A DNA stretch of 39,845 bases from a bacterium (GCA_021373255.1 JAJFTD010000082.1:1-39845); one strand, 5' to 3'. Numbered from the stretch's first letter, positions 5,282-36,256 are shown. Numbers and translations are program-made. The notes: generated from the letters alone by a model not told the origin.

Positions 5282-5422
5282 AATCTAGAAAACACGAAAA
5301 GGAACAAAGAAATGGTATGGATTTCGCTGGACACACCCAGCCAACTCTCCATTCTCAATTCTTAATTCTCAACTTCCTTCGCTTTTAGTCTAGCATGATC
5401 CGGTGGATAATGTGCAGATCCC

Positions 5423-10309: not shown

Positions 10310-11068
10310 ATGAGAAAGTCAGGATTTACACTGATTGAGCTGCTGGTAGTAATAGCAATCATTGCCATTTTGGCGGCTATTCTCTTTCCAGTCTTCATTG
10401 GTGCAAAGGCTAAGGCACAGCAAACCCAGTGTTTGTCGAATTTGAAGCAGCTTAGCACGGCGTTCTTTACCTATGCTCAAAACTACGATGGTAAGATGCC
10501 GGTTGAAATGTCTCCCATGTTCAATGGCACGACAGCGCAGTTGCAGAGCAAGGCGACATTCTGGAATGTGATGCTGATGCCTTATGCGAAGAGCAAGAGT
10601 ATCTTTTGCTGTCCATCTGATGCTTTGAAATCGCAGAATGGCAGAACCGTCCGCAAATCGTTTTTCACCTCATACCGCCCCAACGGTTTACTTATCGACC
10701 CGCGTGGTGACTTCCAGCACGATAGTGTGTCCTGGGCGCTCCCCGGCTCCGGCCCCGCAACTGGAGTCCGCGTCGATACGGTAACAATGCCAAGCAAGAT
10801 GATACTCGCATTCGAGTTTGTTATGGAAATGGATAACGCGAGTACCCCTCTGCTCGCCCTGCCTTATGCATGGACATGGGAGTGGGGTCATTGGGGAAGC
10901 GAATGCCAGAAGACAGATAAGGGTGAGTTCACCTGGGCGAATATGTGGGCACGCCACAACGGCGGCTCCAACTGGCTGATGGCTGATGGCCACGCCAAGT
11001 GGCTCAAACCAAGCCGTATCCGGCTCCCAGGCTACAACAACGATGCCGACGCGTATTGGAAACTGTAG
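10310..11068 (+). CDS. Prepilin-like protein with N-terminal cleavage/methylation motif (DUF1559-like)
   Basis: The product has 252 residues. It starts with a short basic leader and a type IV prepilin/pseudopilin signal: cleavage is expected between Gly5 and Phe6, Glu10 is at position +5, and a hydrophobic helix (LLVVIAIIAILAAILFPVF) follows. The globular domain contains CLSNLKQLSTAFFTYAQNYDG and ends with the H-X9-DG motif (His216, Asp226-Gly227). Such proteins are present in many copies in Armatimonadota, Planctomycetota and relatives and are thought to be surface or pseudopilus-like proteins; their function is not established. It stands between the regulator and the beta-mannosidase, suggesting expression with the carbohydrate genes. 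The start is supported by GAGGAGG. Confidence 0.88.
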   Translation: MRKSGFTLIELLVVIAIIAILAAILFPVFIGAKAKAQQTQCLSNLKQLSTAFFTYAQNYDGKMPVEMSPMFNGTTAQLQSKATFWNVMLMPYAKSKSIFCCPSDALKSQNGRTVRKSFFTSYRPNGLLIDPRGDFQHDSVSWALPGSGPATGVRVDTVTMPSKMILAFEFVMEMDNASTPLLALPYAWTWEWGHWGSECQKTDKGEFTWANMWARHNGGSNWLMADGHAKWLKPSRIRLPGYNNDADAYWKL

Positions 11069-13777: not shown

Positions 13778-15813
13778 TGCTGGAGCTAAGTTATTCAGCT
13801 TACCACGATAAGGTCCTTGGCTGCTGGCAGGGAAAATGCATAGGCGGCAGCTTTGGCGCACCTGTCGAAGGGGCTAAAAGCACCAACGATCTCAAGTTCT
13901 ATGCCAGCCTGGACAAAGCTCAGATCGCAAACGATGACCTGGACATACAACTGGTTTGGGTCCATGCATTCAAGGAGCATGGGTTGGATCTGACCTCCCA
14001 CGACTTGATGCAGGAATGGATGAGCCACGTTCTATTTCCGTGGAATGAATACGGTTATGCGATGAAAAACTTCCGCACCGGCATTCGTCCGCCGCTCTCA
14101 GGGGCGTTTAACAACTCCTACTTTGGCGAGAGTATGGGCTGCCCCATCCGGTCAGAGATATGGGGTTTGGTTGCACCTGGAGACCCGGAGCTTGCTGCTT
14201 CTTATGCGGAAAAAGACGCAGTTCTAGACCATTACGGCAACTCTGTCTATGCTGAAAAGCTGCTGGCTGCCATAGAGTCGATGGCATTCATCGAGTCCGA
14301 TCCCAAGCGTCTCCTGGAAACCGGACTATCTTTCATACCCGCAAACTCGCGCCTGGCCCAGTGTATCAGGTTCGTGATTGAATGCCATGAGCAATCCATG
14401 CCAATGTTGGAGACACGGACTCACATGATCAATCGGTTCGGGCACCCCGATGCGACATCGGCCGTCCAAAACCTGGGTATTATTGCCATCGGCCTGCTCT
14501 ACGGCGAGGGTGACTTTGAGCGTTCGATGGTCAGTGCCGTGAATTGTGGCTACGATTCCGACTGCACAGGCGCAACCGTGGGAGCGATTATGGGCGTGAT
14601 TTTGGGTTCGCATGCGCTGCCCGAGAAGTGGGTTACTCCTATCGGTGACGACATCATAAGTCTGCTCAAGATCGAGGAACTGCTGGAAGAGAGCACGATA
14701 CAGGGTTTGACTAATGAAACCTGTCGCTTCGGCGTCGCCTTGTCCCAGCGATCGGACAGCGCGTGCATAATCCATGAGGTTCCTGCTGACGTTACAGAAA
14801 AGGCTGCTGCTATTGCCGGGCGCGCGGTTGATGATGTTAGTGTGCAGATAGAATATCCCGGCAGCCCATCGGTATCTTTCAGTGAACCGGCAAAAGTATT
14901 CATCAAAGTAGTTAACAATAGGGAAAGAACTATTGATACTCGGCTGCACCTTACCGGGCCATCTCATCTCGATATCAGCATCGACCATGCAGAGGTTACG
15001 CTTCCGCCAAAGGAATCAGCCGGTGTCGAGGTTTTGGTAGTCGTTAAAGATGGAGTGACGGATCTTCCAATCGCGAACAAGATTCGCGTGACGTGTTCCT
15101 ATGAAGACAAGAATTGCAATGAGGAGTTTGGTTTGGCCGGGGCGAGTGAATGGCAGGTAATCGGGCCTTTCTGGGACACATTCCCTGTGGACATGGTCAA
15201 ACCTTGCAGCATTTATCCACACGAAGACCCCAGCCTGCCTCCGGTTGAGCTCATGTTCATGAACCACGCTGGCTTTGATCGGGAATACCTACCCGAGCCG
15301 GGCTTCAGTGAGATAAGATGTGACGATGCAACGGTTGAGAGAGTCACGGTAGATGCGCCGGAAGATAAAGTCCCTCTTGATGATATTTTTACAATGGCAG
15401 GTCCGCAGGTCGTGTATATGATCCGCAAGATTCGTCTTGAGCAGCCCCGCAGGGTGTGGGTGCTCACCAGCGGTACGGACGGCGTCAAACTGTGGATCAA
15501 CGGCAAAGAGCTGATCAATTGCCACGAGCACGTCTGCGAGAACCCATCCTATCACTTTGCCGAAGCCGAATTAAATGCAGGCGTGAACACAATCGCCGCA
15601 AAGGTGATCAGATGCGGGTCGAGTTTTAGGTTCAGTCTTGCGATAAAGGAAAACGACGGCAAACATTGGCATCAACAGCAGCACTTCATTGATTATTCGA
15701 ACGTCAAAGTATGTGTGAAACGTAATCTGAACCGTGTTTCCTCCAATAAAGTGCCGCACGTTAACAATAGTTCTCGCGCGGATGTGCTGGCGAGCAGTTC
15801 GACCCAGAGGTAG
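13777..15813 (+). CDS. ADP-ribosylglycohydrolase-fold protein with C-terminal beta domains
   Basis: The product has 678 residues and no signal peptide. Residues 1-320 show the ADP-ribosylglycohydrolase (ARH/DraG) fold: GCWQGKCIGGSFGAPVEG, the acidic metal motif NDDLD (Asn52-Asp56, where classical ARH enzymes have TDDT) and YDSDCTGATVGAIMG (Asp260, Asp262, Thr264), which corresponds to the second metal-binding motif. About 350 residues of beta-rich sequence follow, including an Ig-like segment and a segment opening WQVIGPFWDTFP and ending GVNTIAAKVIR, as in non-catalytic jelly-roll modules of glycosidases. Coupling to a beta-mannosidase (TAATG overlap) argues for a glycan or N/O-glycoside substrate rather than ADP-ribosylated protein. 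That is inference; the reaction is unknown. Confidence 0.85.
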   Translation: MLELSYSAYHDKVLGCWQGKCIGGSFGAPVEGAKSTNDLKFYASLDKAQIANDDLDIQLVWVHAFKEHGLDLTSHDLMQEWMSHVLFPWNEYGYAMKNFRTGIRPPLSGAFNNSYFGESMGCPIRSEIWGLVAPGDPELAASYAEKDAVLDHYGNSVYAEKLLAAIESMAFIESDPKRLLETGLSFIPANSRLAQCIRFVIECHEQSMPMLETRTHMINRFGHPDATSAVQNLGIIAIGLLYGEGDFERSMVSAVNCGYDSDCTGATVGAIMGVILGSHALPEKWVTPIGDDIISLLKIEELLEESTIQGLTNETCRFGVALSQRSDSACIIHEVPADVTEKAAAIAGRAVDDVSVQIEYPGSPSVSFSEPAKVFIKVVNNRERTIDTRLHLTGPSHLDISIDHAEVTLPPKESAGVEVLVVVKDGVTDLPIANKIRVTCSYEDKNCNEEFGLAGASEWQVIGPFWDTFPVDMVKPCSIYPHEDPSLPPVELMFMNHAGFDREYLPEPGFSEIRCDDATVERVTVDAPEDKVPLDDIFTMAGPQVVYMIRKIRLEQPRRVWVLTSGTDGVKLWINGKELINCHEHVCENPSYHFAEAELNAGVNTIAAKVIRCGSSFRFSLAIKENDGKHWHQQQHFIDYSNVKVCVKRNLNRVSSNKVPHVNNSSRADVLASSSTQR

Positions 15814-15819
15814 TTTGTA

Positions 15820-18800
15820 ATGAGCATTTTGCGAGTAAGCAGTCTGACGATAATAGCAGCACTTCTGCTGATTGTCATGTGTCTGCCGCTGGTTAAGGCA
15901 TCAGCGTTTAGCGACAATTTTGATCGTCCAGACACTCCCGCTAATAACGCCAACCTTAAAGGAGTCTGGGCTGCCTCGGATGTCGGCCTGGACTGGATTG
16001 AGACAGCGTCCGGTAACAGCTCCACGGAAGCGGGTGCGCTTACAGCTCCGGATATACATCTGAATGGCGGCCGAGTCGAGTTTGATCGCATGGGTTGGGG
16101 GCCGAATGGATATTGCTACCTCAAACACACCCTCAACCGAACAGGTTCGCTGCAAGCCGATCTCTATCCACCTATGGTGGTCGGCGGAAGCAACATAGAG
16201 CTTTATGCCTACAACCAGGCGGGCGGCTTCGCTCTGGTCAGGTTATATCGTGGCTCCAACGGCACAGTGAATGCAGGTGTCGCACTATCGCAGACTGGCG
16301 CGTGGAACGACTGGATCGTCTACGGCCAAGATTTAGGCAACCTCCAGGTAGCCACATGCAAGATCAGCACCGATGGCACTTCCAGTGTTACCAGCAGAAT
16401 AGAATCAAACGGCTCGCTGGTCTGGAGCAAGACCATGAGCGGCATGTTTCCGGCGTTTTATAGTGCGACCCTCGGCACAGCCTGGGAATCCTGGTCTAAC
16501 ACAGAATCGCTTTACGCTGACAACTTCATTGCCGAGCTCATCCCCGACCCATATCAATCAACCAGTCCAATCTGGGCAAAAAGTGTCGCCGACTACACTA
16601 TGGTGAGGCTTACTGATGCCACTGTCTCCGCTCGGTTCTACGGAGATGGCGCCGTGCCGATCGGCTTTGCTGTTCAGGGGACGGACCACTGTGGCGGCAT
16701 CAGGGTTGTGTCGGATACACCCGTGAATCCGGGCGATAAGGTTATCATCGAAGGCACGGCGGATACGGCCAGTGGTGAGCGGATCATAAATGCGAATTAT
16801 GTGGGAGTCACTCTCACTGGTGGAGCCGCTCCAACGCCGGTCTTCGCCGCTAACAAAGCGACCGGGGGAGGCGACTTCGGCCGGCAGGCAGCAGTCGCTG
16901 ACGATGCCACCACGACTCCACCGAACCCAAGCAGCGGCCTGAGCAGCATCGGTATGCTCATGAAACTGAGCGGTAATGTTACAGCAGCATCCAACACCGG
17001 CAGCTATGCCGGATGGTTTTATATTGATGACGGGAGCGGTCTCAAAGACGGCTCCGGCAACACAGGCATAATGTGCAGGCCTCCTGCGAAAGCTGATGGT
17101 AACCCTGCATCTCTGCCGTCAGTCGGGGACTATGTTGCGGTTACCGGGGTAATGGGTGTGCGGCAGGTCAACGGCATCAACACCCGCTACCTCTGGAGCT
17201 GCGGTGATATCAATGTCATACGCTCGATAGGCAAACCCATGATCACAGATCAGGCTGGAGCGGAATGCCCGGCGCTTGCAGACGGCAGCACCGATACCGG
17301 CATCACGGTTTCGGCAGGGACCTACACAATCCGCCGTTATACTTCGGACGAAATAGTATCCCTGGACTTCTACATCACCGCCCAGGCAGCCGGGAGCATC
17401 ACGGTAACTTGCGGCGACGTAATGCCTCTCACCTTGAGCTATGCGGCCGGTTCTCAATGGTACAAACTGCGAATCCCCTACAGCACGGCCCAGCACATCA
17501 CAGTAACCTGGAGTGCGTCTGGAGCTACTTGGAATGAGCTGCAGGTGTCTCGCCGGTCGATGCTTCCCACCCGCATAACCGCAGGGACGAAGTCCGCATC
17601 TGTGTCCTTATCAGGGGTGGGGACCACGGCATCTTGCGATATACCAGCAGCGTTCAATTGCAACTGGTTCGAGCACGGGGTGGTCGATGGTATAGCCGCC
17701 TCCGGTACCAGAGATGAGATGATTCAGAGGTTCCACGAGTTCGGCGCTAAGTCGATCAGATTCCCTGGCGGCGGCAGCACGTATGGTTATCCACTCACTC
17801 GCGAGACGATACCCGCTTGGCAGACCGCCATTTCCGTCTCAACTAACTATGGGATCGGCGCTGCTTACGGGCTTTGGAACACGCCGGTTACTTATGCGAG
17901 CCCTGATGAATACTTCCGGTTCTGCAAGGACGCCGGGATCACTGCGTGGTTTGAGCTTAACCCCGGATATTGGTACGATGCCGGCAGCGGTGTGGTCCGC
18001 AAAGTGATCAGCATGGACCTCAATGACGATGGCTACACCGGCAACTATGTTACCCAGGCATCCAACTCCGCGGCATGGCTGGCCAGGTTGGCCAAGACCA
18101 TAGGCGTAGATGTGGTCTGGGAAATCGGTAACGAGGACTACTGTTACTACACTCCCGCCACATATGCCCTGCTCTGCAAGGCGCTGATAAATGGTGTGCG
18201 CGCTATTAACTCGTCTGCAAAGATTGCGGTATGCGGCGACAGCTACAGTTGGTCGGATTACAGTTGGCACACCCAGCTCATACCGGCGCTATCCAGCCAG
18301 AACGTGACAAACGTCGGATACTCCAGCGAGCACTTTTATATGCAAGGTGTGGGTGTCATAGTAAACGGGCAGTGGACTCCATTGCCATGGGACACCCCGC
18401 AGAACATTGGCGACTCTATGACGCGTGCATGGTCGCCGATGCGCAACAATTACATAAGCCGGACCAATGACTTCAATAATAACGGCCTTGGCTCAACGAG
18501 GCTGGCTGTTACGGAGTACAATGTGTGCGCCGGCAGCATGGCCCCAGAACTCGAGCACTCCGCAGGCAGAGCCCTGGGCGAAGCGGAGGTTGTATGTGCG
18601 ATGCAGAAAGATGGAGCATCGATCTTCTTCCACGATCTGGTGAGAGACGATCCTAATGCGACGTTCTTTGCTCGCCTTGATTACTATCCCAGCAACCCGG
18701 CTGGTAAGCGCCTTTTCTGGTACCCTGAAGGTGCGGCTGTGGGCGTCGTCAATCCGCACGGAGAAGGCAAGATAATCTACAACAGTGGTGGAATATGCGT

Positions 18801-19065
18801 AAGCAACCACGTTGGGTTTGTCTATATAACGATAGTTAACCGTGCATCCAGCTTTAATGATGTATCCGTTACCTTAAATGGCGCATCCATAGACCACACC
18901 AGGATGATGGACATAAGGTCATTCAGGGCCTCATCGCCGGACGCTTGTTTCTTTGACTACTATACCGACGATCAACAAGCGTCCGCACCAGCATCAGGCC
19001 AGCAAGTGACCATAGAATCGGCTCCTTACAGCGTGGTAGGGGTCAAGGTTTATCTGACGCAATAG
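15820..19065 (+). CDS. Secreted clan GH-A glycosidase, arabinofuranosidase-like, modular
   Basis: The product has 1081 residues. A signal peptide (about 1-28) leads to a beta-sandwich module beginning FSDNFDRPDTP (about 30-245), then an OB-like module (about 246-470) containing YIDDGSGLKDGSG and YVAVTGVMGVRQVNG, a short beta domain, and a TIM barrel from about 600. The barrel has SIRFPGGGSTYG, EIGNEDY with Glu772 as acid/base, and AVTEYNV with Glu899 as nucleophile, the pattern of GH51, GH39 and GH79 enzymes; GH51 alpha-L-arabinofuranosidase is the closest in style. It starts 7 bases after the ARH-fold gene and is likely in the same operon. Both N-terminal modules recur in the next gene, indicating module shuffling. 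Family assignment below clan level is uncertain. Confidence 0.82.
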   Translation: MSILRVSSLTIIAALLLIVMCLPLVKASAFSDNFDRPDTPANNANLKGVWAASDVGLDWIETASGNSSTEAGALTAPDIHLNGGRVEFDRMGWGPNGYCYLKHTLNRTGSLQADLYPPMVVGGSNIELYAYNQAGGFALVRLYRGSNGTVNAGVALSQTGAWNDWIVYGQDLGNLQVATCKISTDGTSSVTSRIESNGSLVWSKTMSGMFPAFYSATLGTAWESWSNTESLYADNFIAELIPDPYQSTSPIWAKSVADYTMVRLTDATVSARFYGDGAVPIGFAVQGTDHCGGIRVVSDTPVNPGDKVIIEGTADTASGERIINANYVGVTLTGGAAPTPVFAANKATGGGDFGRQAAVADDATTTPPNPSSGLSSIGMLMKLSGNVTAASNTGSYAGWFYIDDGSGLKDGSGNTGIMCRPPAKADGNPASLPSVGDYVAVTGVMGVRQVNGINTRYLWSCGDINVIRSIGKPMITDQAGAECPALADGSTDTGITVSAGTYTIRRYTSDEIVSLDFYITAQAAGSITVTCGDVMPLTLSYAAGSQWYKLRIPYSTAQHITVTWSASGATWNELQVSRRSMLPTRITAGTKSASVSLSGVGTTASCDIPAAFNCNWFEHGVVDGIAASGTRDEMIQRFHEFGAKSIRFPGGGSTYGYPLTRETIPAWQTAISVSTNYGIGAAYGLWNTPVTYASPDEYFRFCKDAGITAWFELNPGYWYDAGSGVVRKVISMDLNDDGYTGNYVTQASNSAAWLARLAKTIGVDVVWEIGNEDYCYYTPATYALLCKALINGVRAINSSAKIAVCGDSYSWSDYSWHTQLIPALSSQNVTNVGYSSEHFYMQGVGVIVNGQWTPLPWDTPQNIGDSMTRAWSPMRNNYISRTNDFNNNGLGSTRLAVTEYNVCAGSMAPELEHSAGRALGEAEVVCAMQKDGASIFFHDLVRDDPNATFFARLDYYPSNPAGKRLFWYPEGAAVGVVNPHGEGKIIYNSGGICVSNHVGFVYITIVNRASSFNDVSVTLNGASIDHTRMMDIRSFRASSPDACFFDYYTDDQQASAPASGQQVTIESAPYSVVGVKVYLTQ

Positions 19066-19123
19066 CAGTAGCCACCAATTATGCACTGACCAAACAATAT
19101 AATGGCTTTCTGGTAATTGGCAC

Positions 19124-19152
19124 TTGACAGTATAGCTAACTGACGATATATT
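19124..19152 (+). promoter_or_regulatory. Sigma-70 promoter of the triple-module protein
   Basis: TTGACA (19124-19129), a 17-bp spacer opening GTATAGCTAAC, and TATATT (19147-19152). It is nearly the same as the promoter at 5423. The mRNA leader would be about 140 bases. Confidence 0.75.
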
Positions 19153-19252
19153 GAGCATGTAGGGTATGGTTTCTAACCACTCATAATTATGAAGACTTGG
19201 CAGAGCATCCAGTAAGGCAATTAGCAATGCCGAGCAGCAATACAAATCGTTA

Positions 19253-19300: not shown

Positions 19301-21976
19301 ATGGAGAGGTTAATTAGGGTTCTTGTTGTAACTGGCCTGGTTGCTGTATGCGCGCTAGTAATCGTGCAGGCAGCCGCTTTGGCCGCTGTGTTCACTGAAG
19401 ATTTCAACCGAGCCGACTCCTCAACCATCGGTAATGGATGGACGGTCACATCGTCCGGTAACAGCGCCGGAGGTACCGCGCCGGTTGCCAAGATTTCAGG
19501 TGGTCGGCTGTTGATGGATCGCGCAGGGTGGGGTTCTAGCGCCTACTGCGATGTGATGCATACCATTGATGCGACTAACTCAGTGGAAGCCGACCTCTAC
19601 GCCCCGGGAATCTCCGGTGGCGGTGCAGGCGTGCAGCTTTCTGCTATTGCGCCAAATAACGGATATGCGCTGTTTAGGCTCTACACCAATGATGATGGTC
19701 GCACTATGTTAGGGGTCAATGTTATCCCCGGCGGTGGCTGGGACGAGTGGGATTTTTATAATGAATTCCTTGGCTATCTTTCCGGCCCTGTCAGATGCAA
19801 GATCGAAACAGACGGTTCTGCTAATGTGACCTTCACTATTATTTATAACGGACAGGTTATCTGGTCTCGTGCCATTGCAGCCTCGGTGCCTCAGTTCACT
19901 AAGGTTGACCTCGGCGCAGCGTGGGAGTCTTGGGCGAACGGTGAGATGATGATTGTGGATAACGTGAATCTTTCCGTAACACCAACAGCCCCCGTGATCA
20001 CATTCAGCGATGACTTCGATCGCGCAGACACTGCTGTTAAAACAGACAACAGCAAGGGTGTATACTTCACTTCCGATATCGGTAACGGTTGGCAGGAGAG
20101 AGACAGCGGAAACAGCGATAGCGAAGCTATTGCCCTGCAAGCCCCGGATGCTCACATGGTCGGCAACCGCGTTGAGTTCAGGAGAAACGGTTGGGGCCCG
20201 AATGGATCATCTGAGATCCTGCATACCTTCAACGCATCCAACACGGTCTCCGCGCGCCTTTCCGCTCCCAATGATTCAAGCATCAACCTGTGGGCGTATG
20301 ATCCAAGCGGTGCTTTCATAATGCTGATGATCAATCGTACATCCAATACCAGCGTCGGTATGCTTGTTAACAACAACGCGACTCCCGGCTGGGATGGTGT
20401 TTGGGACATCAACGGTGATTCCGGTGTTAACCTGGGTAATATCGGCGATGCCACTTATACCATTTCTACCGACAATAACGGCCTCTGCACAATCAAGGTC
20501 GAGGTAAATGGTAGAGTGAGGTGGAGTGGTTCGATAACTACAAACCACACTTCGTTTACTTCGGCAGAGATTTCTGCTGATTGGCGGTCATGGGGAGCCG
20601 GTGGCATTCTTTATGCTGACAACCTCAACTTTACTCCCACTCCTACAGCCGTGTTCAGCGATGATTTCAACAGGGCAAATACGCCTGTGACTACCACCAA
20701 CCCCAAGGATACCTGGTTTACATCAGATATCTTGAATGGTTGGCAGGAGAAGAACGGTGGAAACAGCGACAGCGAAGCAATCGCCCTGCGAGCTCCGGAT
20801 GCGCACCTGGTCGATGGCCAGGTTGAATTCAATCGCGTTGGATGGGGCCCGAATGCATATAGTGATATCACTCAAGTGTTCAGCAGCCCGGTTACAATGG
20901 CACAGATAGACATGTCCATTCCTCCCACAGCCGCCAGTGGCGTCTCGTTGAAACTTGACTGCTCCAATACGGGTTTTGTAATGGTCAGGCTCTGGAGAGA
21001 CACCAATGGAATTGCGATAGCAGTTGCCGCCCTGCCTACACCTGGGTGGAATGACTGGAATATAATAGGCAATCTCGGCAACGTGTCAGATCCGCAAACC
21101 ATAAAGATCAGCACCGATGGCACCAACGGGGTTACCGTGAGTGCTGAGCAGAATGGTATTATTCAGTGGGTCGGTTATGTTGCCGGTGTTTACCCTCAGT
21201 TCACGGCGGCAACAATTGAGGGATCGTGGATGGAGTGGGGAGACAGTGGGCTTGTCTATGCTGACAACCTGAGTGCTGTTTCGATGTTCCCGACAATCCA
21301 GGTGATCAACAACCTCGACGATGCCAGGAAAGCTGAAATTGGCAGTGCGGTTTCCATCAATGATATGATAGTCAGCTCAAGGTATCTCGATGACTCCAGC
21401 CATACATTCTGCTTCGCAGCGGAGAAAGAAAATCGCTCTGCTGCAATCAGGGTTATATCTAATACACCAGTGAACCTTGGTGATCGTGTGGCTATTGCCG
21501 GAAATACGGCGCTGGTGGATGGCGAGTTTGTCATCAATGCCAGCACAGTATCTGGAACTCCCAGCGGCATAACAATTAATCCTGTTGCTATGAACAACAA
21601 GAGCACAGGCGGTGGCGCTTATGGCAACCAGGATGCTGTCTACGATGACGCCGATGCAGGCGTTCTGAGCACCGGCGCTAACACTATCGGCCTGTATACG
21701 ACTATCTACGGAAAAGTCACCCAGGCAGTGGACGATTTCCCGAAATACTCCACCACTTACTTCTACGTGGACGATGGATCGGGCCTCAAGGACGGTTCCG
21801 GTTACACCGGCATCAAATGCTACGCGCCTACGGATTGGGGTTACTACTGGATTCCTGCGAATAACGACTATGTTAAAGTCACGGGAGTCATGGGAGTGCG
21901 CCAGATCAACGGTAAAAATATCCGCTTCTTCTGGACCTATTCCTGGGACTATATCTCCACACCGCCTGCGTCTTAA
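19301..21976 (+). CDS. Secreted protein of three repeated beta-sandwich modules plus OB-like module
   Basis: The product has 891 residues. A signal peptide (about 1-29) is followed by three modules of about 210 residues, each starting FxxDFxRA and ending in a (Y/V)(A/V)DN motif: about 31-230, 234-447 and 450-660. The modules contain GNGW, GWGxxxY and WESW/MEW motifs and resemble concanavalin-like lectin domains. The last 225 residues are an OB-like module (YVDDGSGLKDGSG, YVKVTGVMGVRQING) shared with the upstream glycosidase. No catalytic domain is seen, so a glycan-binding or scaffolding role outside the cell is the best guess. Modules 2 and 3 are still similar in DNA, a sign of recent duplication. 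The ribosome binding site is GGGAGG with 6-base spacing; a terminator follows. Confidence 0.82.
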   Translation: MERLIRVLVVTGLVAVCALVIVQAAALAAVFTEDFNRADSSTIGNGWTVTSSGNSAGGTAPVAKISGGRLLMDRAGWGSSAYCDVMHTIDATNSVEADLYAPGISGGGAGVQLSAIAPNNGYALFRLYTNDDGRTMLGVNVIPGGGWDEWDFYNEFLGYLSGPVRCKIETDGSANVTFTIIYNGQVIWSRAIAASVPQFTKVDLGAAWESWANGEMMIVDNVNLSVTPTAPVITFSDDFDRADTAVKTDNSKGVYFTSDIGNGWQERDSGNSDSEAIALQAPDAHMVGNRVEFRRNGWGPNGSSEILHTFNASNTVSARLSAPNDSSINLWAYDPSGAFIMLMINRTSNTSVGMLVNNNATPGWDGVWDINGDSGVNLGNIGDATYTISTDNNGLCTIKVEVNGRVRWSGSITTNHTSFTSAEISADWRSWGAGGILYADNLNFTPTPTAVFSDDFNRANTPVTTTNPKDTWFTSDILNGWQEKNGGNSDSEAIALRAPDAHLVDGQVEFNRVGWGPNAYSDITQVFSSPVTMAQIDMSIPPTAASGVSLKLDCSNTGFVMVRLWRDTNGIAIAVAALPTPGWNDWNIIGNLGNVSDPQTIKISTDGTNGVTVSAEQNGIIQWVGYVAGVYPQFTAATIEGSWMEWGDSGLVYADNLSAVSMFPTIQVINNLDDARKAEIGSAVSINDMIVSSRYLDDSSHTFCFAAEKENRSAAIRVISNTPVNLGDRVAIAGNTALVDGEFVINASTVSGTPSGITINPVAMNNKSTGGGAYGNQDAVYDDADAGVLSTGANTIGLYTTIYGKVTQAVDDFPKYSTTYFYVDDGSGLKDGSGYTGIKCYAPTDWGYYWIPANNDYVKVTGVMGVRQINGKNIRFFWTYSWDYISTPPAS
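20001..20880 (+). repeat. Intragenic module duplication
   Basis: The DNA of 20001-20215 (start of module 2) and 20648-20865 (start of module 3) is clearly alignable. Near-identical stretches include GGTTGGCAGGAGA and AACAGCGA(T/C)AGCGAAGC, and differences fall mostly at third codon positions. Module 1 (from 19390) is more diverged. Confidence 0.7.
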
Positions 21977-22004: not shown

Positions 22005-22045
22005 AAAAGGACTCGGCCGCTCAATTAAGAGCGCCGAGTCCTTTT
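22005..22045. terminator. Bidirectional terminator between convergent operons
   Basis: AAAAGGACTCGGC(C)GCTC pairs with GAGCGCCGAGTCCTTTT around an AATTAA loop. With A and T runs on both sides, it serves both the triple-module gene (plus) and the alpha-galactosidase operon (minus). Confidence 0.88.
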
Positions 22046-22080
22046 CCCAACTATCAAACCATCAAGCCATCCCACCATCA
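22040..22080. repeat. ACCATCA microrepeats, copy 2
   Basis: Imperfect CCATCAA/CCATCCC/CCATCAG heptads run up to the stop codon of the alpha-galactosidase gene. The first 25 bases match 622-646 at 24 positions. Confidence 0.55.
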
Positions 22081-24117
22081 GACCTTCTTATATACAAACA
22101 CTGCCGAACCAGGCTTCTCGTTGATCACAATAGGGAAGCCCTTTTCCATAAGGTCTGTGCCGGAATACTGCTTTACCTGGTCGCTATCGAATGACCTTAT
22201 CTCATATATTCCATCAGGCTCTAGTGCTTGGAGCTTCGCTGCGTCCAATTTAGAGAACGGGCTTTGCTGCCTGCGAAATGCAAGGATCAGCCCCTCGTTC
22301 AGGTCGGGTCTATCGAACTGCCACAACGCCCACACGTCGTCGTTCTGGCTGTAAGAGAGCAGCGGATAGAAGTCACCGTAAAAGTACTTCGATATCTCCT
22401 TTTGCTCGCGCACCATCTTCCGCAGCCATTCAGCAGGCTGGCCGATACTAGGCCCATATCCCTTAGTGGTGTCGTTCAACACGATACCGGGCCCGAACGC
22501 GCTTCGGAATGTGTAAGTATCGACCCTGTCACAGCTTCCCGTGCTGAGCGGAACCCACGGCGCGAGGCCTTCGGTCTGGTTTTGCATGCCTGTGGGATTG
22601 AATCCTGGGAAACACTGATAATCGCTTCGCCACAGCGGAATGCTGCGCGAGTTGGTTTCCAAATCGATCCTCCGGCCGCCGCTGGAGCAGTTGTCTATGA
22701 GCAGGCCGGGGTTGCGCGATCGCAGGCCGTCCCAGAACGCATACAGGCCTTCTATGTGCCGGATTTCGCTGATGCCTACCCGGTCGGATGCGTCTGCTGC
22801 CGCCCAGAATGGGGCGATGCCCATATTGAAGTCCTGCCTGTAGACGGTTATCCCTCCCTCGCTGATCAGGGAAGATATCAAGTCGATAAGATATTCTCTT
22901 GCCTCTGGAATTCCAAGATTGAAGAGGTAGTTGCCACAAATGGGGCCCTGCAGCCACTCCGGGTGCTCGCGAGTGAATCCAGTGCCCAAACACACCCTCT
23001 CAGGCTCCAACCACAGCACAAAGCCAAGCCCCAGTTTCTTCAGTGTGTCACCCACAGGCTTGAGCCCGTTGGGGTAAGTGGTCTTGTTCGGCCACCAGTT
23101 CCCCACCTGGCCTCCCCAGTTGCTGTTGAAGACACTGGCATCTTCATTGAACTCTGCATCCCCATGCCAACCCGCGTCGATCCAGAACGCATCGATAGGT
23201 ATGTCATTCTCATGCCACCAGCGCGCGACTTCAATCTGCTTGCTGTCTCTTACCTCTCCCCACACAGCTTCACAGACCGGCGCCATTGCGGGAGCGCCGT
23301 TAACTGTCGGGCGATAGTGAGCCATGATCAACTGCCGCCACATATTGTGCGCGCGAGTCCGGTCGCCCTCCCAGAACAACAGCAGCATTCTAGGGGCGCG
23401 AATCTCCTCTCCCGGATGCAGCTTCAAGTGAGTTTTCTTCATCCCCGCGCGAACCTGCATCTCACCATTGGTGTAGCCTTCGCGGATGAGTGAGAGCGCC
23501 CAATCACCTGTCCATCCAATGGCTCCGATAACGCCTGATTTCGACAACTGGAGATTGAAGAACGGTAGTGATCCGCCATTTATGCCATCGGATGAGCGCC
23601 CATCCGCGGAGTGGATGATTTTATTCACGGGGGACCTGAATCGGTATTCCTGAGGTTCAAAATCAATGTTGCTATATTCACTTCCTCGTGCGTAATGAAC
23701 TACCCAGTCATCCGTAGAGTCATTTGGCAATACAGTATCTAGTGCCTGAATGTCAGAGATGATCGAGCTGTCTTTTTCAGCGTTGTTCTTGAAATGCCCG
23801 ACCCATTCCACCGCAGGAAAGTCTTTGTACAACTTGATTTCACAGCGGCACTCCAGCCCCGAATCCGGGTCAGTGAATGTCACCGTGTAGCGTGTGGATG
23901 TGTCATCAGATCCTGTGGACTGCCACTCCGACTTCCACTTGCTCAATAACGACTTGGAATCGTCCCCACCCAGTGAGAACGATACGGGAAAACGACTCTG
24001 TTGGCCCTCGACAGGCTTGAATGTCGACTCGAACCACGTCTGAACTCTTGAGAATTCTTCCTTCGTAGGTGCAATTGCCAACGTACTACCCTCCAACTGC
24101 TTATCTGATATTGCCAC
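22078..24117 (-). CDS. Alpha-galactosidase, GH36 (clan GH-D)
   Basis: The product has 679 residues and no signal peptide, so it is predicted to be cytoplasmic. It would hydrolyse terminal alpha-galactosides such as melibiose, raffinose or galactomannan side chains. A beta-sandwich N-terminal domain leads into the TIM barrel with IDAFWIDAGWHGD, LGLGFVLWLEPERV and YRQDFNMG, where Asp429 is the nucleophile. The acid/base is Asp499 in LWRSDYQ, just after the GH36 CSSGGRR signature. The length fits the 700-residue GH36 group. It is the last gene of the operon, 18 bases after the permease stop, and is followed by a strong terminator. Transporter linkage says its substrate comes through the ABC importer. 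A weak ribosome binding site suggests coupling. Confidence 0.92.
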   Translation of the reverse strand: MAISDKQLEGSTLAIAPTKEEFSRVQTWFESTFKPVEGQQSRFPVSFSLGGDDSKSLLSKWKSEWQSTGSDDTSTRYTVTFTDPDSGLECRCEIKLYKDFPAVEWVGHFKNNAEKDSSIISDIQALDTVLPNDSTDDWVVHYARGSEYSNIDFEPQEYRFRSPVNKIIHSADGRSSDGINGGSLPFFNLQLSKSGVIGAIGWTGDWALSLIREGYTNGEMQVRAGMKKTHLKLHPGEEIRAPRMLLLFWEGDRTRAHNMWRQLIMAHYRPTVNGAPAMAPVCEAVWGEVRDSKQIEVARWWHENDIPIDAFWIDAGWHGDAEFNEDASVFNSNWGGQVGNWWPNKTTYPNGLKPVGDTLKKLGLGFVLWLEPERVCLGTGFTREHPEWLQGPICGNYLFNLGIPEAREYLIDLISSLISEGGITVYRQDFNMGIAPFWAAADASDRVGISEIRHIEGLYAFWDGLRSRNPGLLIDNCSSGGRRIDLETNSRSIPLWRSDYQCFPGFNPTGMQNQTEGLAPWVPLSTGSCDRVDTYTFRSAFGPGIVLNDTTKGYGPSIGQPAEWLRKMVREQKEISKYFYGDFYPLLSYSQNDDVWALWQFDRPDLNEGLILAFRRQQSPFSKLDAAKLQALEPDGIYEIRSFDSDQVKQYSGTDLMEKGFPIVINEKPGSAVFVYKKV

Positions 24118-24135
24118 AGATTGGCTTCGTCATCG

Positions 24136-24990
24136 CTAACCCTTCACCGCGCCCAGTTGAATACCCTTCACTAAGAATTTCTGACTTATCACAAAAAGTA
24201 TTACGAGCGGGATGATGTTCATTACGCTGGCGGCCATGATCAAATTTGTCTGCCGGCCATATATCGTGTCGAAGAACAACATGCCTATCGGCAGTGTCCG
24301 CAAATGCTGGCTTTTGATCATAATCAGAGGCCACGTAAACGAGCCGTAGTTGCCGAGGAATGTGAAGATGGCAAGGGTAACAACACCTGGGCGCGACATC
24401 GGCAGTATGATGTCCCAAAATATCCGCCATGAGTTAGCGCCATCAATTGAAGCAGCTTCATCAAGAGCCGGTGGGATAGTCATCATAAATTGCCGGAGCA
24501 GGAATGTTCCGAATGCGGAAAATGACGCGGGGACGATAAGGCCCAGGTATGAGTCCATCAGGTGCAGCTTAACCATGAGAGTGTAGTTTGGGATCATAGT
24601 GACCACACCGGGGATCATAAGAGTTGCCAGATACAGCTTGAAGAATCCGTCACGCCCGCTCCAATCAACGCGTGAGAATGCGTATGCCGCCATTGCGCTT
24701 GTGATGCAAGTAAGTATAGTCACCCAACCCGCGATGAACACAGAGTTGAAATAATACCTGGCGAACGGGATCTGCTGGAAAACTTTAATATAGTTCTCAG
24801 GATGCCACACACTCGGGAACGGGTTGAGCTGTTCCACCTCTGTGAGAGCCTTGAAGCTCGCCAGCACCATCCATAGGAATGGCGTGAGCGTCGTGAGAGC
24901 TATGAGCGCCAGAATCACGTGGCTCATTCCGAACCGGCCCGTTCGGACCCACCACGTGCGGAACCCGCGCCTTGTATTTGTTGTGCCCAT
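24136..24990 (-). CDS. Carbohydrate ABC transporter permease, MalG-type
   Basis: This is a six-span inner-membrane permease of 284 residues in the CUT1 family. The N-terminus is cytoplasmic (RRGFRTWWVRTGR), the first span is near residues 22-42, and the EAA loop EAASIDGANSWRIFWDIILP begins at Glu178 and contacts the ATPase. It pairs with the MalF-type permease upstream, with which it overlaps by one base (TAATG), and has a strong AAGGAGGTG ribosome binding site 8 bases before its ATG. No ATPase gene is present in the operon, so a shared MsmK/UgpC-like ATPase elsewhere is expected. Confidence 0.93.
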   Translation of the reverse strand: MGTTNTRRGFRTWWVRTGRFGMSHVILALIALTTLTPFLWMVLASFKALTEVEQLNPFPSVWHPENYIKVFQQIPFARYYFNSVFIAGWVTILTCITSAMAAYAFSRVDWSGRDGFFKLYLATLMIPGVVTMIPNYTLMVKLHLMDSYLGLIVPASFSAFGTFLLRQFMMTIPPALDEAASIDGANSWRIFWDIILPMSRPGVVTLAIFTFLGNYGSFTWPLIMIKSQHLRTLPIGMLFFDTIYGRQTNLIMAASVMNIIPLVILFVISQKFLVKGIQLGAVKG

Positions 24991-25982
24991 TAGTAATTCA
25001 CCTCCTTGTTAGAAAGTCGCCAGTTGATCAGGGTGACTATAAAGATGATAATGAACAAAACCCACGAGACCGCTGATGCATAACCGACCTGAAACTCCTC
25101 GAAGGCTTTCGTGTATATGTAATAGCTCATAGTCATGGTCGTGCCGGCCGGTCCGCCGCCCGTCATTACTCTGGCCTGTTCGAACCCGCCCTGGAGTCCG
25201 CCGATGAAGCTCATGACCACTATGAAGAACGTCGTCGGAGCGAGATAGGGCCACGTGACATTCTTGAACACAGCCCACTTCCCGGCTCCATCGAGCTGTG
25301 CTGCCTCGACAAGCTCCTGCGGCAGATTTGTAAGTGCCGCGAGGTAAAGGAGCATATTATTACCGCCCACTGCAATCCAAATGCCCATAATGATGATCGC
25401 ATCTCTAGCGCCAAGCCCCCACTGTGCAGGCAGGAAGCCGACCTTCTCAACATCCAACCCGAGCAGGTTCCTCGTTGCCAGCAGCCACTGGGGCGGGGTG
25501 ACGCTTGTTCCGAAGAGCGCGTGTAAAATGCCGTTAATGTGGAACGTCTGAAGGGTCCAGTTGATAACCGCGTTGATCGGGCCGAAGTCCGGGTTATAAA
25601 GCGCCTTCCAAAGGATCATCAGCGCAATTCCACTGGTGATGCTGGGTAGATAGAACAGCGTGCGATAGATCGTTATGCCGCGCAGGTTCTGGCTCAATAA
25701 CAGAGCAAGCACAAGCGACCCGGCTATCGCCAGAGGGAGACCGAGCATCAAATAGATCGTGTTTACGAAATACAGCCAAAACGACTGATCGTGCCACAGG
25801 TCCACGAAATTGCGCAGAAATGTCCACTGAAACGGCACTGTATGCTGGATGTTCCAGTTGGACAAGCTCATTACCAGCGAAAACGCCACCGGCCCTGCTG
25901 TGAAAACAAGGAACCCGAGCAAGTTGGGGAGAAGAAAACCTGCTGCTATAACTACATTGCGTTGGCGTCTAGTCGTCTTCAT
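24990..25982 (-). CDS. Carbohydrate ABC transporter permease, MalF-type
   Basis: The product is a 330-residue inner-membrane permease of the CUT1 family. Hydrophobic spans begin at about residue 10 (VVIAAGFLLPNLLGFLVFTAG), and the EAA loop EAAQLDGAGKWAVFKNVTWP starts at Glu226. An expanded periplasmic segment (about 125-195) is present. The start codon overlaps the stop of the solute-binding protein gene by four bases (ATGA), and its own stop overlaps the next gene by one. It forms the translocation pore together with the MalG-type protein for import of an oligosaccharide, probably an alpha-galactoside given the downstream GH36 enzyme. Confidence 0.93.
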   Translation of the reverse strand: MKTTRRQRNVVIAAGFLLPNLLGFLVFTAGPVAFSLVMSLSNWNIQHTVPFQWTFLRNFVDLWHDQSFWLYFVNTIYLMLGLPLAIAGSLVLALLLSQNLRGITIYRTLFYLPSITSGIALMILWKALYNPDFGPINAVINWTLQTFHINGILHALFGTSVTPPQWLLATRNLLGLDVEKVGFLPAQWGLGARDAIIIMGIWIAVGGNNMLLYLAALTNLPQELVEAAQLDGAGKWAVFKNVTWPYLAPTTFFIVVMSFIGGLQGGFEQARVMTGGGPAGTTMTMSYYIYTKAFEEFQVGYASAVSWVLFIIIFIVTLINWRLSNKEVNY

Positions 25983-27340
25983 TTAGCTTTTGTCCCCATC
26001 AATCTATCGTACTCGGCTCGCAGGTTTGGATCACGGTCCAGGTTCTTTTGTATCTCTGCGTTTACTTCTCTGGCTGCGGCTTTCATAGCTTGGGTAGCCG
26101 GTTTCTGGTTGTTCCTCACCAAGTCAAGCTGCTTTTCGACAATCCGCCCCGCCGTCTGCGCATTGATAAACGGGCTAACCTCTTCAGTCATCGCATAATC
26201 ATTCGTGTCACGCCACACGGCATTGAAATCTTCATTGGGGTAATCCGGGTCGTGCATGTATTTATCTGTATAGCAATACGCTTTCATCGGTGACACGCAG
26301 TCAGCCTGATGATTAACAAGCTCATTGTAATCATGGCTTGCCAGATACTTCAGGAACGCCAGCGCGGCTTTGCGGCGCGGGCTGTTTTTGTTGATAATAG
26401 TGACTCGTGAGCTGCCCCAGTAGATTTTATGAGGGCCATAAGGGCACTCTATCGCGCCCAGCTTGAGCTCCTTAATGTCTCTGAGGCTGCAAAGCCAATA
26501 ACGTCCGCCCAGCGCCATCGCTCCCTTGCCGCCCATGAACAGGGTCATAGTGCCGGACCCCCAGCCCCCCTGTGTGGCCATTGCGGCTTCATCGTTAGGG
26601 GTGGGCATGACGTGGTATTTATACATCAGGTCGTGGAAGAACTGCACTCCTGCGATAGCCTCCGGGCTGTCGATAACGCACTTCGTGCCGTCGGGTGTGT
26701 ACGTTCTGCCGCCCCACTGCCAGATGAACTGTGTCACCATCCAAGAATCGCACAAGAACCCGTATTGCTTCACCCGCCCGTGCTCATCACGGATTGTCAG
26801 GCGCTGAAGAATGGGCAAGAATTCTTTCCATGTGCGGACATTCTTAGGGTAGGGGACTTTATACTTATCGAAGAGGTCTTTATTGAACCAAATAGCGGGT
26901 GTGCCTACGTTTGAGGGGACACCATACACGCGTCCTTTGTAGACCACGCTTGATAGGGCGAGCTTCCATGCATCTTTCTTTACATCTATGCCTGCATTTT
27001 TCAGCTCATCAGTCACGTCCCATGCGATTCCCGCTTTAACGTATGTAGCCAGCTTGTAAGACCCATAAGAGTCGAATAAATCCGGCCCAACTCCGGCAAT
27101 GGACTGAACGATAACCTTCTCCATCCCTCCGCCGGTATTTGTATCAACGGGGTCCAGGCGCACATTATACTGTGGGTTCAGCCGGTTGAACAGTCCCAGT
27201 TGTTCGCGCCTTGTGGGGTTGTCGTCACTGAGCCAGGTCAGGTTTGTTTTGCTGAGGTCATCGGGCTTCGGCTGGAGCATCCAGGCCACACCAGATAGTA
27301 GTATCCATACAATGAGAACGGTGATGACAGCGGTCTTCAT
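25979..27340 (-). CDS. Extracellular solute-binding protein of sugar ABC transporter
   Basis: The product is a family 1 (CUT1) sugar-binding protein of about 453 residues. It has an N-terminal hydrophobic segment (TAVITVLIVWILLSGVAWML) without an obvious lipobox Cys, so it may be anchored by an uncleaved helix or cleaved without lipidation. Typical blocks include VGPDLFDSYGSYKLATYVKAG, YGVPSNVGTPAIWFNKDLFDKY and ALAFLKYLASHDYNELVN. The start at ATG 27340 has AAGGA 8 bases upstream; an ATG at 27349 and a more distal in-frame start near 27418 are less likely. It delivers the sugar to the two permeases that follow with 4-base and 1-base overlaps. Confidence 0.9.
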   Translation of the reverse strand: MKTAVITVLIVWILLSGVAWMLQPKPDDLSKTNLTWLSDDNPTRREQLGLFNRLNPQYNVRLDPVDTNTGGGMEKVIVQSIAGVGPDLFDSYGSYKLATYVKAGIAWDVTDELKNAGIDVKKDAWKLALSSVVYKGRVYGVPSNVGTPAIWFNKDLFDKYKVPYPKNVRTWKEFLPILQRLTIRDEHGRVKQYGFLCDSWMVTQFIWQWGGRTYTPDGTKCVIDSPEAIAGVQFFHDLMYKYHVMPTPNDEAAMATQGGWGSGTMTLFMGGKGAMALGGRYWLCSLRDIKELKLGAIECPYGPHKIYWGSSRVTIINKNSPRRKAALAFLKYLASHDYNELVNHQADCVSPMKAYCYTDKYMHDPDYPNEDFNAVWRDTNDYAMTEEVSPFINAQTAGRIVEKQLDLVRNNQKPATQAMKAAAREVNAEIQKNLDRDPNLRAEYDRLMGTKAK

Positions 27341-27451
27341 CAGTCGCATCCTTCGCGTTTTTGTAGTGATGGATGCAGGACGTAGCCCTGCGGAGGAAGC
27401 AAGCCCCCGACACGGCATCGAGGGCTTACTGAAAATTACCTATAAACTAGA

Positions 27452-28204
27452 TCAACGTCTGCGCCGCAGGAAAGCGAGCGGAAGAACGCTTGCCAATGCC
27501 AGCAGTGACGAAGGCTCAGGGACAGCGGCGGTTGTCGCGGCGAAATTGTCAGCGTAAATATTCCCACCGGCTTCCCAGCCTGCCCAATTACCCTTGATTG
27601 CGGCTTCATTGATCGACTGAAGAGCAAACGCATAAGATCTGCTCCAGAGCACGCTGTCACCGGAGAGTACATCTACGGTTACCTGACTGCCGGTTGTAGA
27701 AATCTTATATGTGGAGACACCCGTTGTATCCACATAATCACCATAAGTGATCCAATCATGCCAACCGCCATCGTTTGATAATGAAACAGAGACTGATTTG
27801 CCGCTACCACTCTGGAATGATCTTACCATAACATAAGCTCCACCAGCGCCGATGGCAGATAAGTCAGCATTCGGGTTGCCTTTTTCGGCCAATGTCCAAG
27901 ACATATCTAGCTGTATAGAGGTCACTGCATCCAGAGCGTGTTCGACGGCGATATCCCCATCAGACCCCCATCCTGCGCGGCTTAATACCAACTGTCCGCC
28001 TGTAATGCCAGCTATCGGAGGAGTATTATTACCACCCCCGTTTCCATTAGCGCCTACAGTCCAGCCATTACCAACTGTGCTTGAATCAGCACGATTGAAA
28101 TCATCCGAGAAGTTTGCCGCAAAGCCAGGGGTTTGTGCCACAATGATTGCAGCCGAGGCCGCCACGATGGCGGTCATTTTGAGAGCACGAGTAATCATTT
28201 TCAT
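27452..28204 (-). CDS. PEP-CTERM surface protein of one beta-sandwich module
   Basis: The product has about 250 residues. A signal peptide (ending GFAA) is followed by a single module starting FSDDFNRADSSTVGNGW, the same type found three times in the protein at 19301 and once in the glycosidase at 15820. The C-terminus VPEPSSLLALASVLPLAFLRRRR is a PEP-CTERM sorting signal: the PEP motif, a hydrophobic span and an Arg cluster. Exosortase would process it at the envelope; no exosortase gene is in the window. It is the first gene of the ABC/GH36 operon and by inference could hold glycan fragments at the surface. The start at ATG 28204 is eight bases after AGGAGG. Confidence 0.88.
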   Translation of the reverse strand: MKMITRALKMTAIVAASAAIIVAQTPGFAANFSDDFNRADSSTVGNGWTVGANGNGGGNNTPPIAGITGGQLVLSRAGWGSDGDIAVEHALDAVTSIQLDMSWTLAEKGNPNADLSAIGAGGAYVMVRSFQSGSGKSVSVSLSNDGGWHDWITYGDYVDTTGVSTYKISTTGSQVTVDVLSGDSVLWSRSYAFALQSINEAAIKGNWAGWEAGGNIYADNFAATTAAVPEPSSLLALASVLPLAFLRRRR

Positions 28205-28223
28205 CCACTTATCCTCCTCTACA

Positions 28224-28240
28224 GCGGCATGAAATGCCGC
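28224..28240 (-). promoter_or_regulatory. Leader hairpin before the PEP-CTERM gene
   Basis: GCGGCAT-TTC-ATGCCGC on the minus strand is a perfect 7-bp stem ending five bases before the AGGAGG of the PEP-CTERM gene, similar in position to the hairpin before the prepilin-like gene. Confidence 0.55.
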
Positions 28241-28386
28241 CTTTCCTTTCATAGTGAGGCTGACAGCGTCGACGCAGTCGATGCGAGAAGTCTCACCAAT
28301 AGTCCTTAAAGTGTGATATGTGTTAGCCGCAGCGCTCTACTTGCCGTGTAAGCGGCTCACCGCCAGCTCACATACCCAACAACCTA

Positions 28387-28415
28387 AGTATATATCCAAA
28401 AAGCTATATTGTCTA
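28387..28415 (-). promoter_or_regulatory. Sigma-70 promoter of the PEP-CTERM/ABC/GH36 operon
   Basis: On the minus strand TAGACA (28415-28410), a 17-bp spacer opening ATATAGC, and TATACT (28392-28387). The leader is about 175 bases. It shares TATAGC immediately after the -35 box with the promoters at 5423 and 19124. In the rest of the 28205-28612 spacer I see no gene. Confidence 0.65.
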
Positions 28416-28612
28416 GTGGCAGACTCAACATTTCTCCGATTCTAGCAATTATGTGGTGCTGTGCCTATGTCTCACGAGAAGATGCAGTATTTCTTTGAGC
28501 CGTTTTATTAGTAATATCCTTCCCGCTTCAGGATAGTATAGCAAGAAGCATATATACTTAGTTGAAGTGTGTTAGGTAGAATAGAGAAGTGGAAATGCAA
28601 GTGGTTGAGTAT

Positions 28613-28674: not shown

Positions 28675-30000
28675 TTACTTAGTCAACATCACCGGCACAA
28701 AGCGCCGAGGGTCGATCTTGCCTGCAAGGCCGCCGCCCCATTCGGTCTGAGTAACTTTCGTGCCGTCACTGTCGTTCACCAAGATTGAGAGCGCAAACAT
28801 ATTATCCTTCATCGGCTTGATGGCACTCAAAGGTATCGCCATTTCATAGATGCTCTTGTTGCCATTTCTACTAAATGCCACAGGATACTTCGTATCTGCT
28901 TCAACAACCTTGGCATTGGCAAAGGTCTTCAGCATCACAGACCCGCCTTCCGCGCCGATCACCGTAAACTCAACATCATCAGCCCTATACTCACCGCTTG
29001 GGGCGCTCGCGCCGTCGACCAGCGGGTCAAAAGCCAATACTATACTATCCGACGGAGGGTTTGCGTTCACGCGGCTCTTTGAGTCCGGGCTGAGGAAATG
29101 CGTTGGATCATTAACTTCAACATTGACGTAGAAGTTCGTATCATCATAAGCGAACCTCGCCCTGCCGATGACGTCCCACTTCGAGCCGTCTACCAGCCGT
29201 GCTATCGCAACAGCGCTCGCGCCGGTCCAATCGTCAGTCTTGCCATCTATACTGATCTTGCCGGAGGGCTTTTTCGCGTTCACAGGCACGTCCACAGCCA
29301 CCCAGTCTTTGGTCTTTCCAAGATCGATGTATACTGCATAATGCCCAGGCGCGGGGTTGCCGTCGGGGGATACGCTGAACATAAACGCCTCAAGCCCGTT
29401 GGGTTCCACTGTAATCTCAGTGCTCGCAGGCGATACCCTGATCCCACCGGAGGTGGTAAGGTCGATAGAGCTCTTGTAGACCTGATCGCTGTGGTTGATC
29501 ACACTCATACCCACACGCGAGGGCTCATCGGATGCGCCCAATATTAGCCTGGAAGGCAGCATAGTCAGCTCCAGAATCGGTGACACATACAGGTTCCGGC
29601 TCTGAGTTACCGACTGTGACTTTCCATCAGCCGTGTATTGCACAGTTCCAACCAAAGTCAGCACCTGCGCCCCTGCTCCATCCGGGAACGTCACAGTATA
29701 GCTTCCTACACCGTTTGCGCCGGCGGCTACAGTCGCCGGTGCTTCTACAGCGGTTTTCATGTCGAGTTTGATGTCGGTGCTCGATTTACACGATACGTCG
29801 ACCTTATCGATTGTGACATCACCCTTCGTCTGGTTGGCAAACGTCAGGAGGAGCGTGTAGGGTTTGCCGGTGATGTAATTGAAGATCGGCCCCTCGGTCG
29901 AAACTTCCATCGACAGGCTGCACTGATCCGAACCTAATGCTAACACCGGCATCGCCACAAGCGCTACTGCCAGAATTGCTGCTGCAACAAACTTCGTCAA
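28675..30000 (-). CDS. Secreted protein with CBM9-like (DOMON-type) C-terminal domain
   Basis: The product has about 441 residues. A signal peptide (AAAILAVALVAMPVLALG) leads to two Ig-like beta domains: about 25-145 (PYTLLLTFANQTKGDVTI) and about 146-245 (GMSVINHSDQVYKSSIDL). The C-terminal domain (about 250-441) has the carbohydrate-binding family 9-like layout: ISIDGKTDDWTGA, then ARFAYDDTNFYVNVEVND, then YEMAIPLSAI. Family members bind sugar chain ends, but such domains also occur in proteins of unknown role. A GTG at 30009 is against GGAGG, so TTG at 30000 with 8-base spacing is preferred. It is a single-gene unit with its own promoter and terminator. Confidence 0.8.
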   Translation of the reverse strand: MTKFVAAAILAVALVAMPVLALGSDQCSLSMEVSTEGPIFNYITGKPYTLLLTFANQTKGDVTIDKVDVSCKSSTDIKLDMKTAVEAPATVAAGANGVGSYTVTFPDGAGAQVLTLVGTVQYTADGKSQSVTQSRNLYVSPILELTMLPSRLILGASDEPSRVGMSVINHSDQVYKSSIDLTTSGGIRVSPASTEITVEPNGLEAFMFSVSPDGNPAPGHYAVYIDLGKTKDWVAVDVPVNAKKPSGKISIDGKTDDWTGASAVAIARLVDGSKWDVIGRARFAYDDTNFYVNVEVNDPTHFLSPDSKSRVNANPPSDSIVLAFDPLVDGASAPSGEYRADDVEFTVIGAEGGSVMLKTFANAKVVEADTKYPVAFSRNGNKSIYEMAIPLSAIKPMKDNMFALSILVNDSDGTKVTQTEWGGGLAGKIDPRRFVPVMLTK

Positions 30001-30038
30001 CTGCTGCACCTCCAGAAATCAGTTAAGATTGTGGCACC

Positions 30039-36214: not shown

Positions 36215-36245
36215 TATAAATGTAGTAGCAAATATAGCTTGTCAA
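36215..36245 (-). promoter_or_regulatory. Possible promoter toward the nucleotidyltransferase gene
   Basis: On the minus strand TTGACA (36245-36240) is followed by AGCTATATT and an AT-rich stretch with TTTATAGAT. The spacing to a good -10 box is long (19-20 bp). On the plus strand the same bases read ATATAGC just upstream of the GH36-like gene, echoing the other carbohydrate promoters. Confidence 0.3.
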
Positions 36246-36256
36246 GGAGTCTGATA

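Follow-up and report, generated by a model that had tools for sequence, protein, structure and literature searches.

Does a surface protein serve a sugar importer when its gene merely lies ahead of the importer genes? The question is raised by a run of five minus-strand genes (22078-28418) in a bacterial DNA stretch of 39,845 nucleotides (GCA_021373255.1 JAJFTD010000082.1:1-39845), which we refer to as the window. In transcription order, these genes encode a PEP-CTERM protein, a CUT1 sugar-binding protein (SBP), two permeases (PermA and PermB), and a GH36-family enzyme, types that had been predicted for them and that are borne out by Pfam and TIGRFAM family matches. The PEP-CTERM protein (27452-28204) consists of a signal peptide, one module (27530-28117), and a PEP-CTERM tail. 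The SBP (25979-27340) matches PF01547 (SBP_bac_1, 6.9e-33), PermA (24990-25982) and PermB (24136-24990) match PF00528 (BPD_transp_1) at 2.9e-9 and 1.9e-16, and the enzyme (22078-24117), in which no signal peptide was seen, matches PF02065 (Melibiase, 2.5e-25) and PF16874 (GH36C, 9.3e-9). Because of their ribosome-binding sites and signal sequences, we chose 28204 over 28252 as the start of the PEP-CTERM gene (AGGAGG lies 9 nt upstream, and the signal peptide begins MKMITRALK) and 27340 over 27418 as that of the SBP gene. A gap of 111 nt separates these two genes. The remaining junctions agree with those described earlier: a 4-base overlap between SBP and PermA, a 1-base overlap between PermA and PermB, and 18 nt between PermB and the GH36 gene.

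An SBP_bac_1 protein accompanied by two BPD_transp_1 permeases identifies a CUT1 importer, and the run recalls RafEFG/MsmEFG-type importers with a cytoplasmic glycosidase, in which an SBP, two permeases, and a GH36 enzyme likewise stand in a short-junction run. It differs from that type in that no ATPase gene was seen within the ABC run, the hydrophobic N-terminal segment of the SBP has no lipobox Cys, and a PEP-CTERM gene leads. The nearest solved relative of the SBP is an arabino-oligosaccharide-binding protein (6rjy, 1.7e-21). As for the enzyme, which the original prediction called an alpha-galactosidase, GH36 membership is upheld by the Melibiase fold and by the conservation of both catalytic aspartates (D429 and D499 align with D478 and D548 of AgaB, each protein in its own numbering), whereas alpha-galactosidase is a family-level call only, the nucleophile motif reading RQDFN here and KWDMN in AgaB. 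The enzyme also weakly matches a beta-L-arabinopyranosidase model.

The leading protein had been described as anchored in a sortase-like manner. Its tail, with a PEP motif, a hydrophobic stretch, and a basic end, scores 20.0 bits against TIGR02595 (cut-off 16) and 16.7 bits against PF07589, under the 20.7 cut-off of that family; the signal-peptide-like N-terminus was judged by eye. Anchoring is consistent with the 33 PEP-CTERM genes above cut-off and the two exosortases (PF09721, 204.5 and 177.6 bits) of this genome. Given these counts, the tag is therefore a general sorting signal in this genome, and it gives no specific link to import. To our knowledge, for most PEP-CTERM proteins no function has been described. 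Some, however, have been placed at the interface of the cell and its exopolysaccharide (EPS), linking the two (PMC1569441, PMC12188702), and one, the exported ZepA, aids zinc uptake (PMC10957091). The protein studied here resembles ZepA, floc PepA, and other PEP-CTERM/exosortase (EpsH) proteins in its signal peptide, its tail, and the exosortases of its genome; compared with ZepA, it has a ConA-like body, a sugar CUT1 importer as neighbor, and no metal link, and its function is predicted from sequence. The EPS precedents, together with the 33 PEP-CTERM genes, speak for an unlikely alternative, that of a matrix or adhesion protein. Like the PEP-CTERM proteins of floc-forming bacteria and hormogonia, it would hold the cell to exopolysaccharide or a plant substrate and would not feed the importer directly, and any co-regulation with the importer would reflect only growth on that substrate.

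The body of the protein points instead toward glycan use. The module, about 197 aa long, occurs five times in the genome, always inside the window: the PEP-CTERM protein has one copy, the protein encoded at 19301-21976 has three, and that encoded at 15820-19065 has one. Its Trp residues W50, W119, W122, W178, and W181 are conserved. Its AlphaFold2 model is all-beta (pLDDT 84.5, pTM 0.87), in keeping with the single beta-sandwich module foreseen for the PEP-CTERM protein, and in structural comparison it comes closest to ConA-like domains, namely those of GH43, GH16, phage Dit CBM2, galactocerebrosidase, and legume lectins (Z 15-17), most of the listed matches being at about 8-16% identity. From this model we assign to the module, with good confidence, a predicted ConA-like jelly-roll fold, common to lectins, carbohydrate-binding modules (CBMs), and GH16/GH43 domains; its likeness to these proteins and to phage tail CBMs is at the level of fold only, and the fold by itself is no proof that the module binds sugar. 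We found no Pfam family for the module, no detectable sequence relative in the PDB, and, by tblastn, no copy in phages. Matches on viral contigs, and most of those in GTDB, were rejected, because most of their similarity lies in the short FSDDFNRAD start. One copy is fused N-terminally to a GH51-like domain, such that the modeled lectin-type beta-sandwich is appended to a carbohydrate-active enzyme, as CBMs are. The module may be described as a candidate new carbohydrate-binding family, clearly present in only three genomes. It does not belong to SusD, whose part the original prediction had it play: SusD has an alpha-helical, TPR-type fold, the module model is all-beta, the importer here is of the ABC type, and no Pfam match to a SusC/TonB receptor was found among the proteins scanned from 1.2-34.1 kb. 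The likeness of this locus to SusC/SusD of Bacteroidota goes no further than the proposed task, in which a binder at the surface would serve glycan import.

Evidence beyond gene order that joins the module to the importer comes from a promoter box. The promoter first proposed for the run (28415-28387) scores 10/12 and is unremarkable alone, 11 such sites occurring in the region against 8.4 expected. When 28421-28371 is compared with the region before the three-module gene (19118-19168), 37 of 51 ungapped positions agree; the maximum in 1500 shuffles was 31. A 32-nt pattern (CACTWGACARTATAGCTNNNTGNNNATATAYT) matches the 4.19-Mb genome three times at up to three mismatches, all in the window and each time at the head of a unit. 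The first copy (5420-5451, plus strand; CCCTTGACA-ATATAGCCAACAGGCGA-TATATT, 3 mismatches) precedes a secreted GH2 gene, the second (19121-19152, plus strand; 0 mismatches) the three-module gene, and the third (28387-28418, minus strand; CACTAGACA-ATATAGCTTTTTGGATA-TATACT) the PEP-CTERM/ABC unit. The pattern was built from two of these sites, so the third is an independent match. Its reversed control has no match in the genome, and the three sites score 46.6-50.9 bits, with the next best in the window at 9.6. All three hold a 17-nt spacer between the -35 and -10 hexamers, as well as TATAGC and GATATA-like halves, spaced as TATAGC-N8-GATATA. Since the box is unique to three units that lie on both strands, these very probably form one regulon, and it is very likely that module and importer are regulated together. 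Through this box, a functional coupling of module and importer is better supported than by gene order alone, and what had been a guess from gene order becomes a testable regulon that ties a PEP-CTERM protein to glycosidase genes, further module genes, and a sugar importer.

The idea that a single promoter drives all five genes thus holds for the promoter itself, by virtue of the shared box; one transcript is not established, as the 111-nt gap contains a hairpin (27430-27397, minus strand; 14 bp, -24.2 kcal/mol, z -3.2). This hairpin could stop, process, or stabilize transcripts. Were it to end them, the PEP-CTERM gene would be a transcription unit of its own, the ABC and GH36 genes would have a separate promoter, and adjacency would be the sole link between the two. 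The hairpin and the length of the gap fit this arrangement, but we consider it improbable: the hairpin has no clean T tract, no promoter-like match occurs in the gap, and no second copy of the box lies near 27340. Read-through past a processing or stabilizing hairpin is the reading we prefer, with a terminator as the second option. Elsewhere in the genome the gap sequence is not repeated, and the leader RNA (28400-28260) has no unusual structure. At the far end of the run, a strong hairpin (22005-22045; -32.2 kcal/mol, z -7.3) lies between convergent units and probably ends both as a shared terminator.

The three units with their common start signal make up an island of 23 kb (about 5.4-28.4 kb). 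On the plus strand, the first unit opens with the secreted GH2 enzyme (5583-9050), which is beta-galactosidase/glucuronidase-like by its Pfam GH2 domains and PDB matches (E ~1e-22) and has a signal peptide recognized by eye. An ArsR/SmtB-like HTH regulator with an extra C-terminal domain follows (9175-10164; HTH_5 7.1e-9, NF033788 1.1e-13), then a pseudopilin-like protein, a GH2 beta-mannosidase with no signal peptide seen (11144-13777; 5.5e-130 to the solved beta-mannosidase 5n6u), an ADP-ribosylglycohydrolase-fold (ADPRGH) protein (13777-15813; PF03747 2.8e-45), and a secreted protein (15820-19065) composed of a module (15904-16539), an OB-like segment, and a GH51-like catalytic domain (17587-19062). 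The secreted protein with three module copies (19301-21976, plus strand) ends in an OB-like segment as well. The ArsR-like protein would be a natural candidate for the regulator that binds the box. The promoter region of its own gene (9114-9142) is without the box and has GGGTATG after the -10 in common with two of the three boxes. For the GH51-like domain, the model is too poor (pLDDT 49), so its fold matches are a hint only, and we prefer a distant sequence-profile match to GH51 arabinofuranosidases (5e-5); the motifs WEhGNED and TE[FY]N are conserved. One of four aligned members of this GH51-like family matches DUF7402, and two other genomes of the phylum (L033, L034) carry the domain without the module.

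Together, the GH36 enzyme and the beta-mannosidase suggest galactomannan-type oligosaccharides as a possible substrate, and the GH51-like domain and the SBP point to arabinose. With enzymes of such mixed types, any substrate is a guess; we keep both. The explanation we hold to be probable, by a modest degree, is that the PEP-CTERM protein, exported and ConA-like, serves a single lineage-specific island for glycan use as its carbohydrate-binding accessory, alongside the shared-box regulon and the importer. Gene content, domain repeats, and the unique box are read from the sequence and the module fold is predicted; to these we add, by inference, glycan binding, surface location, substrate, the ArsR-like regulator, and read-through. 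The common promoter/operator box would switch the three units on together. The PEP-CTERM protein would be exported and probably retained at the outer surface or in the matrix. Near the cell, the secreted enzymes (GH2 at 5583; GH51-like with module at 15820) would cut a plant-type glycan containing galactose, mannose, and/or arabinose, and the secreted module proteins (three modules at 19301; the PEP-CTERM module at 27452) would bind it. Oligosaccharides would then be taken up by the CUT1 importer and finished by the cytoplasmic GH36 enzyme, the GH2 beta-mannosidase, and possibly the ADPRGH-fold protein. That glycan-degrading enzymes carry paralogues of the module, or share their regulation with them, argues for a glycan substrate more than for self-made EPS, and hence against the matrix or adhesion role.

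Co-occurrence of the module with ABC genes in relatives, a check set beforehand, was absent. No module was found in any other of 291 genomes of the phylum (E 1e-5), and across 84,980 species genomes convincing relatives came from two Verrucomicrobia, with no importer seen at the locus, and no further ones were found in 384 genomes of that class. One Verrucomicrobial gene (L015:7884-8738) encodes a one-module PEP-CTERM protein of the same architecture at about 31% identity. A pseudopilin-like gene comes next and then a homologue of the GH51-like domain of the window (9e-57), with LacI-like regulator, GH127, and GH42-like genes as neighbors. Module and tail are alike at the two loci, both of which also carry the GH51-like domain; there is no importer in 16.6 kb of the Verrucomicrobial locus. 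A profile match between the module and the N-terminus of a Verrucomicrobial GH protein was not significant. Within the genomes compared, conservation of the module-importer pair is refuted.

The importer genes are far more widespread, with SBP matches at E <=1e-50 in 82 of the 291 genomes. Among the 40 SBP loci first fetched (39 from other genomes and one paralogue from the same genome), the SBP-permease order is kept nearly always where contig and match allow, PermB standing ahead of the SBP in two. Neither a module nor a GH36 gene was ever found beside the trio at those 40 loci, and GH36 relatives in the phylum are located away from SBP-permease loci, which makes the gene grouping of the window a local assembly. 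In two genomes of the same genus, the GH36 neighbors are 2-hydroxyacid dehydrogenase and esterase-like genes, which give no pointer to the substrate. The paralogous operon (L069, G000:C182) runs pseudopilin-like, ADPRGH, SBP, PermA, PermB, and no PEP-CTERM gene was seen in it; its ADPRGH paralogue directly precedes the ABC genes, and the window also carries an ADPRGH gene.

As relatives do not keep module and importer adjacent, a SusD-like capture role is no more than a possibility. The original prediction had suggested this role for the PEP-CTERM protein, as a capture subunit at the surface whose function would be coupled to that of the ABC importer. Gene order, the common promoter box, the lectin-like fold, the export tag, and the precedent of ZepA as a PEP-CTERM exoprotein aiding uptake (PMC10957091) fit that role, and so does a second case in the genome. 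At two of its 14 SBP_bac_1 matches, those in the window and on contig C164, the gene immediately upstream, in the same orientation, encodes a PEP-CTERM protein; about 0.07 such cases would be expected, a rough and post hoc figure that assumes 3,800 genes and 60% same-strand neighbors. At the second locus (L152:3871-8727, G000:C164), the PEP-CTERM gene lies 438 nt ahead of a gene for a 799-aa SBP-permease fusion, accompanied by a further permease; its product, however, is unrelated to the module. Moreover, among 71 SBP loci fetched from other genomes, none showed an immediately preceding PEP-CTERM gene (not all contigs are long, and weak tails may escape the motif filter), no outer-membrane receptor was seen, and the best module relatives have no importer. 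We regard the capture role as unlikely. The same low standing applies to its boldest form, in which an exosortase-exported single CBM-like module of a new CBM family would act as a dedicated capture subunit that raises the local oligosaccharide supply to the ABC importer regulated with it; such a strategy would resemble that of SusD but do without SusC/D and rely on PEP-CTERM sorting. Should the accessory we favor indeed bind glycan, it would show how polysaccharide is collected at the cell surface by a PEP-CTERM-bearing bacterium whose locus has no SusC/D. PEP-CTERM genes are, in general, no denser near SBP loci than elsewhere (8 in 1.0 Mb against about 8 per Mb genome-wide), a density that suits a matrix or adhesion protein. 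In two of the SBP loci from other genomes, PEP-CTERM genes follow the permeases closely, one with two CHRD-type proteins (L071) and one (L108) whose PEP-CTERM body does not match the module.

An Rfam scan of the window returned nothing. At about 0.52, its G+C content is near that of other loci of the genome (0.48-0.52), so we see no signal of foreign origin. Genes for DUF1559-like pseudopilins turn up repeatedly in the vicinity of regulators, glycosidases, and ABC genes (10310-11068 in the window; L015, L069, L071, L104, L105). Directly upstream of the island, 28675-30009 encodes a secreted protein with a CBM9-like domain (PF06452, 6.9e-12), followed by a terminator-like hairpin (28648-28619). 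Farther along the window, 36239-39520 encodes a secreted protein of 1093 aa, with no NCBIfam match, that has the look of a TIM-barrel glycosidase with C-terminal beta domains.
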